DNA of 50,073 nucleotides, taken from the NCBI GenBank assembly GCA_031280275.1, contig JAITGX010000038.1, forward strand, positions 1-50,073. The letters run 5' to 3'. The notes under the pieces were generated by a model. The model ran no database searches and was not told where the DNA came from. It saw only the letters and a program-made list of their open reading frames with translations. This DNA comes from Synergistaceae bacterium. GTDB taxonomy: Bacteria > Synergistota > Synergistia > Synergistales > Aminobacteriaceae. The position numbers were made by a program, and so were the translations under genes. Below are positions 25,444 through 50,073 of this stretch, piece by piece (the stretch's first letter is position 1; the number at the start of each line of letters is the position of its first letter).

Positions 25444-25574
25444 TAAAGGAAGCGCTGATTAATCCCTTTGTGGGGCTCCGCCCCACGCCCCGCTTAGGGG
25501 CCGCCGTCACGGACATGTGCATGACTCGAAAAATTCCGTCGTCTTTGGAAAAAACCCCATTAATTAGTGTTTCC
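25444..25574 (+). repeat. dispersed palindromic repeat, copy 7 (centre replaced)
   Basis: Left arm TAAAGGAAGCGCTGATTAA, the GGGGC-TCC-GCCCC hairpin and CCCGCTTAGGGGCC are present, as are the right-end ACCCCATTAATTAGTGTTTCC bases. Between them about 55 bases of unrelated sequence replace the second hairpin. The break is at the same central point as in copies 2, 6 and 12. Confidence 0.8.
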
Positions 25575-33537: not shown

Positions 33538-33572
33538 ACCGCTCAAAGATTAGACCTCTTCGGGAATTAAAG

Positions 33573-33726
33573 TAGGGTGTGTTTTAAAACTAAATATGGG
33601 CATGAATCCTTAACTATGTGGCATAATATAACAAATCAGGGTATGTTTTAAAACTCCTATTGACTTCAAAAAAGTGCCTAAAAACGGCGGTTTTTGTTGG
33701 AGTAGCTAGTTTTCAAACACACCCTA
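33573..33726. mobile_element. MITE-like element with 17-bp terminal inverted repeats
   Basis: GGGTGTGTTTTAAAACT at 33575-33591 and its inverted complement at 33708-33724 (one mismatch) bound an AT-rich, non-coding 154-bp segment. A third, direct copy GGGTATGTTTTAAAACT lies at 33639-33655. Each end is flanked by TA, and TTAAAG occurs on both sides (33567-33572 and 33728-33733), possibly target-site duplication. It abuts a transposase remnant, so it may be the collapsed end of the same insertion sequence. Confidence 0.65.
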
Positions 33727-34017
33727 TTTAAAGTGGAACTTGAAGGCAGTGTAGTAATGGGAGACAAAGCATATGGTACAAAGGAAATCCGTGAATATAT
33801 TGAAAGTCATGGAGCCAGTTATTGTATTCCGCCGAAAGCGAACACCGCAAAACCATAGAAGTGTGATTTTTTTCAGTACAAGGAACAGCACGTAATAGAA
33901 CGTTTTTTCAATAAGCTTAAACAACCACAAGCTTAAACAACCACGTGTATTTTTGTATTTCTGCCACCACACGGCAGCCCTATATCTTGATTGGTTTCGG
34001 CATTTTCAGCCCCTTTT
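33727..34017 (+). pseudogene. IS5-type transposase C-terminal remnant
   Basis: The frame from 33727 reads VMGDKAYGTKEIREYIESHGA, then YCIPPKANTAKP, a TAG stop (33856-33858), KCDFFQYKEQHVIERFFNKLKQ, and after a frame change RVFLYFCHHTAALYLDWF. This matches the C-terminal half of IS5-family DDE transposases (third acidic residue region 'YKeRhlvErFFnkiK'). Two lesions are clear. TAG stands where the family has Trp (TGG). A 16-base tandem duplication, AAGCTTAAACAACCAC at 33913-33928 and 33929-33944, shifts the frame. The N-terminal half is missing. 34018-34260 shows no gene. Confidence 0.8.
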
Positions 34018-45890: not shown

Positions 45891-47456
45891 CTAACGGATA
45901 AGGCTGAGAACGTTCTGCGGCAGGCTGTTGGCCTGAGCCAGCATGCTGGTGCCCGCCTGGAGAAGGATCTGGAGTTTGGTGAAGTTCATCATTTCCTTCG
46001 CCATGTCCGTGTCCCTTATCCGGCTTTCGGAGGCCGTCAGGTTCTGAGCCGCCACGGTCAGGTTGTTGATGGTGTGCTCCAGGCGGTTTTGGTACGCGCC
46101 CAGCTTCGCCCGCTGGGTAGACACCTTGTCCAGGGCGTTGTCGATAAGGGTGATGGAACGGGACGCCGCTTCCCGGTTGGTGACGATAACGCCGTTGATC
46201 CCCAGCCCCAGGGCCCGCATGTCGCCGATGTTGATACCCATATCCTCGCCCTCGTTGGCGCCGATCTGGAACACCGTGGTGTTATCCTTCAAGTGCAGGT
46301 TGAATGAGTATTCACCCTTGGAGATAGCGGAGAAGATGACGTCCACGTTGGGATGGATGAGACCAATCAGCCTGTTCCCCGTAACGAGGAGACCGCTGCC
46401 AGTTTTGATAGGGTCTACCGCACCGTATAGGCCGCCGTGGGCGTCCGCTATGTCGACAAAGTACGTGACCTCCTTGGCCTTTCGCAACTCAGACAACCCG
46501 AAGGCCTTCAGCACGTCCTCGTCGCCCGCGAAGGACATCTTCCCGTCGGAGCCCTGAGTCAAGGACGCGATTTCAATCGTGCCGGGTACCCCACTAGCAG
46601 AAAGAGTCCCCATTCTTGCGCTAAGAATCTGCGCGCCATTATCTGGATTCTTCAACGCGTTGAGTTTTTTTATCACATCCTCCAGCGTATCGTCGCCATA
46701 AAGAGTGAGTCTGTCCCTCGTGCCGTTGCCCAGCGTGACCGTGATGGTTTTGGGGTCCTCCAGCAGGAAACGCCCCTCGCTGTTCCAGAACTGCTGAATG
46801 TCGCGCAGCTTGGTACCGCTCATAGCGATGGTGCCAAGCGGGTACCCTGAGGAAGTGTGCTTGATCGTGAAGATGTTGCTCTTCAGTACCTGCGCCGTTC
46901 CAGTATCGTACTTGATCGTGATTTTAAGGTTGGCCTCGGCGGCGCTCTTCTGACCAAACTGGTCGATGGTGCGCAGTCCGCCGTGGACGACGGCCTTAGC
47001 CCCAAGCTGGCTGGTGGACCAAAGAATGCCCGCAGAACCGTCCAGGAGCTTTTTCTTGTTGAACTGGGTGGTGTTGCCGATACGGGTGACTTCCTCGCGG
47101 AGCTGGTCGATTTCCTCTTGGATATAGGCGCGGTCCTGCTGGGTAAGGGTGTCGTTGGCCGCCTGCACGGACAGTTCGCGCATACGCTGCAAAATGGCGT
47201 GTGTCTCGTTGAGGGCGCCCTCGGCGGTCTGGCTCATGGAGATGCCGTCCTGGGAGTTCAGCGCCGCCCGGTCGAGGCCGCGGATCTGCGCCCGCATTTT
47301 CTCGGAGATGGCAAGCCCCGCCGCGTCGTCCGCTGCGGAGTTAATGCGCAGCCCCGTGGAAAGTTTCTGAATAACCTTCTCCAGGGTTCTAGAAGTGTAG
47401 TTCACCGCGTTGTAAGCTTGAAGCGCGGGGATATTGTGATTGACGATAAGAGACAT
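45891..47456 (-). CDS. fliC: flagellin
   Basis: Filament subunit, 521 residues, exported through the flagellar type III system. The N-terminal D0/D1 region (1-170) has IVNHNIPALQAYN, LSTGLRINSAADDAAGLAISEKMRAQIRGL and LQRMRELSVQAANDTLTQQDRAYIQEEIDQLREEVTRI. The C-terminal D1/D0 region (about 425-521) ends in AQANSLPQNVLSLIR. The middle 250 residues are variable surface domain. The stretch around LQRMRELSVQ corresponds to the site recognised by TLR5 in enteric flagellins and is conserved here. A strong AAGGAGG precedes ATG 47456. It is transcribed alone from a promoter about 400 bases upstream, far from the structural operon. Confidence 0.96.
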   Translation of the reverse strand: MSLIVNHNIPALQAYNAVNYTSRTLEKVIQKLSTGLRINSAADDAAGLAISEKMRAQIRGLDRAALNSQDGISMSQTAEGALNETHAILQRMRELSVQAANDTLTQQDRAYIQEEIDQLREEVTRIGNTTQFNKKKLLDGSAGILWSTSQLGAKAVVHGGLRTIDQFGQKSAAEANLKITIKYDTGTAQVLKSNIFTIKHTSSGYPLGTIAMSGTKLRDIQQFWNSEGRFLLEDPKTITVTLGNGTRDRLTLYGDDTLEDVIKKLNALKNPDNGAQILSARMGTLSASGVPGTIEIASLTQGSDGKMSFAGDEDVLKAFGLSELRKAKEVTYFVDIADAHGGLYGAVDPIKTGSGLLVTGNRLIGLIHPNVDVIFSAISKGEYSFNLHLKDNTTVFQIGANEGEDMGINIGDMRALGLGINGVIVTNREAASRSITLIDNALDKVSTQRAKLGAYQNRLEHTINNLTVAAQNLTASESRIRDTDMAKEMMNFTKLQILLQAGTSMLAQANSLPQNVLSLIR

Positions 47457-47940: not shown

Positions 47941-47992
47941 GTGAAGCGCCATTAACCCCTTGTGAGGCTCCGCCTCACGCCCCGCTTAGGGG
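47941..47992 (+). repeat. dispersed palindromic repeat, copy 12 (left half only)
   Basis: Left arm GTGAAGCGCCATTAA, hairpin GTGAGGC-TCC-GCCTCAC, then CGCCCCGCTTAGGGG. It ends at the centre of the consensus. From 47993 the sequence is unrelated and runs into the large open frame below. The compensating changes in the hairpin (GTGAGGC with GCCTCAC) keep the stem paired. Confidence 0.8.
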
Positions 47993-48046
47993 TGTGGGAG
48001 AAGATACCCAGAAGTCCCCTACCCGGAGGAACAGCCGAAGCCTGTC

Positions 48047-50073
48047 ATGCCCCTGCAGCGTCCGGAACCTCTCCCCACTGACCCTTTTGTCATACGACTG
48101 CAAGATGACGTCAACACCAGCGGGCAATTAACGCCGGTGGGCATGAAGAGGCTCGCGAGAGCAAAAGCCATACTAATGAAAGACGACCCGGAAAACTGGG
48201 CTAAATATCTAGAAGGCGGCTTCGCTGAGGTATACAAGGAGTTCCCGGAGAAGTTCGACGAACAGGCCCGGCGGGATGAGCTCTTTACCGAACTGACCGG
48301 GGAGAGCGGGAACATCTTCGAGTCTGACGCCGCGAACCAGGCGGTGGAGGTGGCCAGGGGGGCTAAAGCAGTTTTGCAAGAGACGGCTTTCCCTGCTGTA
48401 CGCGGCATAGGTGAAGGTGCGGCGGCGTTCGCTGACCTAGCTTACGATGTGCTTAACTTTGCCGATAACTTGGCTGAGACAAATTTTCTGCCGAATGACG
48501 TAAACGTACAGCAATGGCTTTTGGACAAAACCACACTATTAGAAGGTGAAACAATTCTCAGCACTATGTCTCAAACCTTAGCCAAGTTTGCGGCAGGCGG
48601 GAAACTATTGGGTATCTTGGCCTCTGGCACCGCAAAAGCCGTGGGATTAGGCAAAGCAGTGCAGGCAACAGCTAAATTCCAGCAGGCTCACCCGGTGATT
48701 TTTGAAATGCTGAAGAGCCAACCGGTTAACCAGATAGTATCAGACCCTCACGGCGGCACTATTTTCAACTGGATGGGTTCAATCGTGCCGAGTTTGCAGG
48801 GCCCCTTGCTTCAATATCTTTCGATTAACGGTGATGAGTCAGAATGGGAGGCGCGGTTAAAATCAGCCGCCGCTAACGGCGCTCTTGACCTTGTGCTTCA
48901 GCCAGTGTTATATTATGGAAGCAAATGGCTGAAGGGTGAATTGACTAGAAAGAACAGCCCTCCTCCTCCCTCCTCTTCACCCCCATCTTCTGGTTCCAGT
49001 TATGACGTGCATGAAGCGGCTCAAAAGGAAATGTGGAGACAGTTTGAAGAGGCCGTAGAAGAGGCCGCGAAACAGGCTGACGACACGCTGAAAAGTCAAA
49101 CAGACGAAATGCTAGGGGCGGCTTCAGGAGGACAGAAAGGAGGAAGGGCGGGCAATGAACAACATCTTGGGGGAAGTACTGGGGAAAATACTGCTGGGCG
49201 TGGTACGCCAAATGGAACCGGGCATGAGGGAATCCCTGGACAAGGGAGAAGTGCCTCTGCCCGTGGGGATATTTCTGTTCATGGGGATAGCGGGGTTAAT
49301 AATGCTGATTTACCAGTACCTCCAGGCAATAGAAATCCTGTAGACACACCACCCGGAGGTACACCACCAAGAGGTGCACCATCACCCACCCCCGGAACAG
49401 AACTCTACTGGCACCAGGACGCGGCGGGGAACTGGTCGCTGAGGGAGAGACCGGTTAAAGGCGGAACGGTAGAATTATCACAAAGAGGGGACTCGGTGAG
49501 GGTTCCTCTTGACGGGCAACAACAAGCAAGAGGGGGAGGAGCGGCAGACGTTTCTCCCCCTTCACCGTCTTCGCCCATGGACGACGCCCTTCCACCCCCT
49601 CCTTCTTCGCCTTCTCCCTCACCTGCAGACGACGCCCTTGGTGCACCATCACCCTCATCACCACCATCTCCTCCCCCAACCCCTCCAGATGCAGACAGCG
49701 GAGGAGGAGGAGGAGGGGTCGAGGGCAGTCAAAAGCCCTGGAACTACAAGGGCTTCACTCCTGAAGAGCAGGATACTATCAACACACTGCGCCAAGCCGC
49801 CGGGCTCAATCGAGCCCCTAACGAGGCGGGCGTGCTTAAAGACCCCCAAGTGGTTGTTGACGCCATGTCCAAAACAGACGCTTTCCTCCGTTCCTTGGGT
49901 TGGACGGGTAATGAGGAGGGCCGCCTGAAGTTCCTCTTCGATTGGATTGAAAAGCAGGGCCGGGCTGAGGTCTTCGTCACCTACGAGGCCTGGAAGGCCA
50001 TGCAGGCCGACTTTGACGCGGTGGGGCTATGGCTTCGTCAGTTGGACGCTCAAGGCCCTGAGGCCTTCGCCGC
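48047..50073 (+). CDS. large protein of phage/mobile-element type, open to window end (partial)
   Basis: An uninterrupted frame runs from just after a TAG at 47987 to the last base: at least 675 codons from ATG 48047 with no stop. The first part (about 1-310) is helical with small-residue stretches (VARGAKAVLQETAFPAVRGIGEGAAAFADLAYDVLNF; FAAGGKLLGILASG; DPHGGTIFNWMGSIVPSLQGPLLQYL). Next come Ser/Pro- and Gly-rich linkers (about 310-565), including two DDAL-PSP units, then a new domain (YKGFTPEEQDTINTLRQAAGL... LKFLFDWIEKQGRAEVF). The style matches very large phage or conjugative-element 'polyvalent' or virion proteins; that is inference. GGAGGA lies 16 bases before ATG 48047, rather far, so the true 5' end may be lost at the repeat junction. 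Confidence 0.7.
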   Translation, partial: MPLQRPEPLPTDPFVIRLQDDVNTSGQLTPVGMKRLARAKAILMKDDPENWAKYLEGGFAEVYKEFPEKFDEQARRDELFTELTGESGNIFESDAANQAVEVARGAKAVLQETAFPAVRGIGEGAAAFADLAYDVLNFADNLAETNFLPNDVNVQQWLLDKTTLLEGETILSTMSQTLAKFAAGGKLLGILASGTAKAVGLGKAVQATAKFQQAHPVIFEMLKSQPVNQIVSDPHGGTIFNWMGSIVPSLQGPLLQYLSINGDESEWEARLKSAAANGALDLVLQPVLYYGSKWLKGELTRKNSPPPPSSSPPSSGSSYDVHEAAQKEMWRQFEEAVEEAAKQADDTLKSQTDEMLGAASGGQKGGRAGNEQHLGGSTGENTAGRGTPNGTGHEGIPGQGRSASARGDISVHGDSGVNNADLPVPPGNRNPVDTPPGGTPPRGAPSPTPGTELYWHQDAAGNWSLRERPVKGGTVELSQRGDSVRVPLDGQQQARGGGAADVSPPSPSSPMDDALPPPPSSPSPSPADDALGAPSPSSPPSPPPTPPDADSGGGGGGVEGSQKPWNYKGFTPEEQDTINTLRQAAGLNRAPNEAGVLKDPQVVVDAMSKTDAFLRSLGWTGNEEGRLKFLFDWIEKQGRAEVFVTYEAWKAMQADFDAVGLWLRQLDAQGPEAFA
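49155..49343 (+). CDS. small membrane protein printed in another frame of the large gene
   Basis: A 62-residue frame inside the large gene, shifted by +1. AAAGGAGGAAGG lies just upstream of ATG 49155 (49136-49147). The product has an amphipathic start (NNILGEVLGKILLGVVRQM), a charged middle (ESLDKGEVPLPVG) and one clear membrane helix (GIFLFMGIAGLIMLIYQYL), ending in QAIEIL. In the host frame this stretch encodes only low-complexity Gly/Asn linker, which would tolerate overprinting. Phages use such nested frames for small membrane proteins, for example in lysis gene sets. No homologue is recognised, and a chance frame is possible. Confidence 0.4.
   Translation: MNNILGEVLGKILLGVVRQMEPGMRESLDKGEVPLPVGIFLFMGIAGLIMLIYQYLQAIEIL

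Follow-up and report, generated by a model that had tools for sequence, protein, structure and literature searches.

A gene with a T7-like internal virion protein module, joined to the broken centre of a palindromic repeat found throughout a Synergistota genome

We lean slightly towards reading the right end of the window (the whole stretch of DNA that was analysed, 50073 bp, which is all of contig C7 in a 2.07-Mb draft genome of 141 contigs, 86.8% complete) as the left end of a phage-derived element that sits in the centre of a palindromic repeat and has the gene of an ejection-type protein as its first gene. Host genes lie to the left of this gene, and its right side is beyond the contig end. 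The host is placed in Synergistota on the strength of a Synergist-CTERM sorting signal on contig C31. Support for a virion protein is good as far as the N-terminal module is concerned. Feature coordinates are collected in Table 1.

Table 1. Features at and around the junction on contig C7
Feature	Position	Strand	Remarks
Copies of the ~90-bp repeat in the window	near 360, 2826, 12582, 15738, 23150, 25464, 25674, 29697, 31064, 42488, 47943		
Flagellin gene, host gene adjoining the junction	45891..47456	-	PF00669 and PF00700
Left half of the ~90-bp palindromic repeat	47943..47992	+	Alignment to full copies; centre cut after CTTAGGGG (47985-47992)
TTAGGGG, junction sequence common to both gene copies	47986..47992	+	C7/C16 alignment begins here
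54-nt leader YPEVPYPEEQPKPV	47993..48046	+	In frame with the gene; nearly identical on C16
Large phage-related gene, 5' part, at least 675 codons	48047..50073	+	Cut by contig end; paralog C16:1-1470:-
Internal virion protein D (T7 gp16-like) N-terminal module, residues 79-351	48281..49099	+	Helical, Gly/Ala-rich; phrog_6651
Pro/Ser/Gly-rich linkers, residues 301-570	48947..49756	+	Helix 320-359, short strand pair 451-469; low-confidence AlphaFold2 model
Helical segment, residues 572-675	49760..50071	+	Cut by contig end; pLDDT about 51-63 in part; no family match

A single frame runs without a stop from 47990, directly after a TAG at 47987-47989 that lies inside the repeat half, to 50073 (about 694 codons), and its first ATG, at 48047, leaves at least 675 codons before the end of the contig. 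In 500 mononucleotide shuffles of the same stretch, read in six frames, the longest open run was at most 299 codons (median 137), which bears out the initial annotation of a large unbroken gene running off the window. The stop codon is missing because the assembly contig stops at 50073; the final 30 bases of C7 have no other occurrence in the bin with up to 3 mismatches allowed. A GGAGG stands at 48025-48029, 17 nt upstream of the ATG.

According to the profile search, residues 79-351 match positions 53-323 of phrog_6651, 'internal virion protein' (E 3.7e-8). A genome-wide search for this family (E 6.3e-9) reports matches only at this gene and at its second copy on contig C16, and none in the 14 control genomes; elsewhere in the phylum set of 188 genomes it was found in one other genome, G124. 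Regarding phages, tblastn matches the internal virion protein D of the Autographiviridae phage KM23-C739 at E 7e-4, with a weak match to HTVC041P, and the C7 gene has two distant matches and no others among 50,697 phage records. An alignment-guided scan recovered the module in 25 IMG/VR contigs and one Pelagibacter contig. At these 26 loci outside the present genome it is placed close to the N-terminal end of the open frame (first matched residue 40-192), the frames are mostly about 1,150-1,240 aa where complete, and the phrog_6651 identity was confirmed for all five loci checked. Profile-profile comparison of the module with hhalign gives 96.3% probability (E 1.6e-9), and with an HMM of the phage module only these genes score above noise (2,812 sequences including 400 shuffles; best shuffle E 1.8). 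The alignment behind the hhalign and HMM results was gathered partly by resemblance to the C7 protein, so the first phrog_6651 match is the more independent test. Close relatives of the gene were found neither in 60 related genomes nor in exact-peptide scans of viral and genome collections, and relatives of the module are absent from 72,556 plasmids. The agreement between the phrog_6651 match, tblastn, the IMG/VR and Pelagibacter contigs, and hhalign upholds the earlier suggestion of a virion protein for the N-terminal part.

Internal virion protein D of Autographiviridae and marine podoviruses has the same N-terminal helical module, with the motifs D..G, P.LQ.PL..YL, and EARLK. The C7 protein differs in its longer N-terminal extension, and in having Pro/Ser/Gly linkers and an unmatched helical segment where gp16 has a conserved body. 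Its gene also adjoins the host flagellin gene, whereas internal virion protein D genes adjoin virion genes. As for the gp16 central and C-terminal body (profile positions ~700-1300), it is unmatched in the visible 675 aa, which match profile positions 53-324 only, and the genome search returned no further stretch of the family.

Residues after 300 have no significant match in Pfam, NCBIfam, PHROGs, or PADLOC, and no Pfam, NCBIfam, or enzymatic domain was detected in the visible 675 residues as a whole. The AlphaFold2 models (mean pLDDT 36 with 2 sequences and 37 with 19 sequences) serve for rough secondary structure only, and residues 572-675 are the best-scoring part of a poor model. A PDB sequence search returned short matches only, mostly to designed repeat proteins, which were judged to be driven by composition; an Rfam match to mir-150 in the Pro/Ser-coding stretch is far under its gathering score. 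Polyvalent proteins of phages and conjugative elements are single polypeptides that unite at least two domains with disparate activities (PMC5512222). The C7 protein resembles such proteins in its large size, multiple segments, long linkers, and apparent N-terminal injection module, but carries no recognised enzymatic or large-polyvalent-associated domain in its visible part. The name 'polyvalent protein', used in the initial annotation, so far finds no support in the visible 675 residues; the profile search suggested there did return a virion family, phrog_6651, but no large polyvalent-protein domain.

The repeat that adjoins the gene is about 90 bp long and consists of inverted outer arms GGAAGCGCTGATTAA ... 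TTAATCAGTGCTTCC, an inner hairpin, and the central palindrome CTTAGGGGCCTGAGGCCCCTAAG. Its ends are inverted over 15 bp and often flanked by TTAA, and GGGGTCTCGGACCCC-like blocks stand in its centre in varying number. At ≤3 mismatches, 179 genomic sites match the right arm, compared with 0 for a reversed-pattern control. In the copy next to the gene, the half repeat is cut exactly at the centre, after CTTAGGGG, which is the first half of the central palindrome, and the ATG follows 54 bases on; the broken repeat centre on the 5' side was therefore correctly noticed at the outset. A half repeat by itself is weak evidence, because half copies stand elsewhere in the genome without such a gene. The copies differ in their centres, and some are half copies without any ejection-type gene: in the window, only the left half is present at 2826-2862, and in the copy at 25444-25574 about 50 unrelated bases stand in place of the centre (half copy, 25481-25574). 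Several further copies are broken at or near the centre, and the centre of the palindrome may be a hot spot of breakage or insertion.

The second copy of the gene occupies bases 1-1531 of C16 (minus strand), where it too runs off the contig end. It shows 83% DNA and 81% protein identity and is the sole other substantial match to the C7 gene within the genome. Similarity begins at the same base in both (TTAGGGG|TGTGGG). Outside the gene, C7 has the left repeat half and C16 the right arm of a different repeat copy, inverted; the same end of the proposed element is seen in two independent repeat copies. The same starting base, next to the opposite half of another repeat copy, is unlikely by chance. 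By our estimate, which leaves a palindrome breakage hot spot out of account, the chance of a second junction at a repeat centre is ~1/1000 (about 180-290 copies, 3-base tolerance). Because the repeat centre is symmetric, an element inserted there has CTTAGGGG on its left in either orientation, which fits both C7 and C16. That both gene copies have the same left end, but in opposite halves of two repeat copies, points to a virus-derived element that inserts into the repeats, and TTAGGGG is proposed as the insertion point or crossover core.

For the C16 site only, an empty site could be compared. In the same-genus genome G001, ttcA, ruvX, and alaS are contiguous, with neither repeat nor insert. 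In the present genome the repeat arm and the second gene copy come after ttcA, and ruvX is on C31, behind a full rather than a half repeat and the end of a Synergist-CTERM gene. The adjacency of ttcA and ruvX has been lost relative to G001, so something of some length, not necessarily one insert, came between them. C31 was considered as the other flank on grounds of synteny and rejected, since the sequence preceding ruvX contains a full repeat and not a half. On C16, the ttcA-like gene reaches its stop codon within the repeat arm (L005:1525-1554), and the end of its protein is thus set by the inserted repeat. Two genes with RKKR-type tails, on C31 (L052:1-307; this one matches Synergist-CTERM) and on C4 (L159, C4:6478), are each followed directly by a nearly identical copy of the repeat, as if repeat and gene end had been duplicated together.

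The initial annotation also proposed the edge of an integrated element. The shared left end, the GC3 of the gene (0.52, compared with 0.65-0.82 in 13 other window genes), which is foreign, and the lost ttcA-ruvX adjacency speak for such an edge, but the right end was not found: the complementary junction was sought in about 95 distinct right-arm copies, none of which was shown to be one. Two candidates, on C46 and C35, were rejected as neither resembles an element end, and C35 has no long gene past its half repeat. A 30-bp match on C130 was set aside as probably due to chance. Three integrase genes are present in the bin (C92, C60, and C67), with linkage to C7 or C16 seen for none.

Under the favoured reading, the left end of the element would lie within the central palindrome of an abundant repeat, probably inserted site-specifically at the centre, and its right end would adjoin CCCCTAAG and the other repeat arm. 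The first gene would encode a T7-like internal virion module in its N-terminal ~300 residues, with flexible linkers and one or more additional domains behind it. The gp16 protein of T7 is packaged and ejected with the DNA (PMC8954989). The C7 protein may likewise be packaged in the capsid and ejected with the DNA into the next host, the N-terminal module helping it to pass the portal and the envelope; the C-terminal part would act in the new host as a further activity. A more specific form, in which the symmetric repeat centre is the attachment site of a phage, satellite, or cargo cassette whose ejection protein is a chimera of a T7 module and a payload, is tentative and in our view rather doubtful. 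Taken as an attachment site, the repeat centre would offer well over a hundred possible sites per genome. We know of no phage-derived element with an edge at the centre of a REP-type palindrome, though no dedicated literature search was made. If this form were true, an abundant repeat would serve as a dispersed attachment site, and the N-terminal part of a T7-type ejection protein would be reused to deliver other domains.

Comparison of the C7 and C16 copies gives Ka/Ks of 0.10 for residues 1-112 and 0.06 for residues 201-300. Synonymous differences are saturated in residues 113-200, Ks is about 0.30-0.35 in the flanking blocks, and it falls to 0.09 in residues 431-490. The low Ka/Ks in the conserved blocks indicates purifying selection on the protein, and the substitution patterns point to a functional protein with blocks exchanged between lineages. 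A mosaic organisation has been described for phage ejection proteins (PMC8954989).

These values bear on the explanation that the gene is a remnant, a 5'-truncated fragment of a phage gene that was joined to repeat arms by hairpin-palindrome breakage or repeat-mediated recombination, so that no intact element end exists. Both gene copies could be 5'-truncated, since no stop separates the frame from the junction and GGAGG stands 17 nt before the ATG, and the Pro-rich in-frame leader and the poor spacing of GGAGG are what a remnant might show; the breaks at or near the centre of other repeat copies and the lack of any other T7-type phage gene found in the genome point the same way. However, Ka/Ks of 0.06-0.10 implies selection on the protein, and the two copies share a boundary but have opposite repeat arms, which a single truncation followed by duplication fails to explain. 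We regard the remnant as unlikely. An ordinary T7-like prophage, with a divergent gp16 and its remaining phage genes missing through incompleteness of the bin, appears decidedly improbable. Such a prophage does occur in the same order, in G124, with TerL, tail proteins, internal virion protein D, and an integrase, and 86.8% completeness leaves room for missing genes. The present protein, however, continues after residue 350 with linkers and not the conserved gp16 body, no T7-type terminase (phrog_38) was found in the 86.8% complete bin, and the internal virion protein D gene of G124 sits within its prophage, not at an edge.

Another explanation makes the gene a polyvalent-type effector of an integrative conjugative element, transferred by type IV secretion and with a borrowed phage module. 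Polyvalent proteins are known in conjugative elements (PMC5512222), and contig C60 carries one such element (integrase, topoisomerase, VirB4, VirB6, VirB8, VirB9, and VirB10). However, no linkage of C60 to C7 or C16 and no matching ends were seen, and in this analysis the module is known from phage virion proteins only, the plasmid collection having yielded none. The conjugative alternative raised by the initial annotation thus found no direct support, and we consider it very improbable.

Among known systems, REP palindromes are targets of insertion sequences (PMC1525189; PMC11187229). The C7 and C16 loci share with REP-targeting insertion sequences the position of their left edge, which in both is the centre of a palindromic repeat that occurs genome-wide; they differ in that no transposase is seen and the visible cargo is a phage virion-type gene. 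The prophage of G124 (C121), from the same phylum and order, has an internal virion protein D with a homologous module; in contrast to the C7 locus, it looks complete, with TerL, tail genes, and an integrase. No copy of the 90-bp repeat was found within the 40 kb examined on G124 C121. That region (G124:C121:22000-61999) encodes a terminase, tail tubular proteins, internal virion protein D, and a tyrosine integrase, and represents a temperate T7-like phage in Synergistota.

The conjugative element on C60 (L072, C60:942-18116; tyrosine integrase) includes, at L072:10005-10144, a 90-bp repeat that is itself broken. Another type of repeat, whose ends resemble GGGTGTGTTTTAAAACT, is present in the window at 33569-33732, at L072:460-490, and on C46, C100, and C118. 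On C60 this second type adjoins the start of an apparent transposase gene, and it appears to interrupt some of the 90-bp repeats (C100:370, C118).
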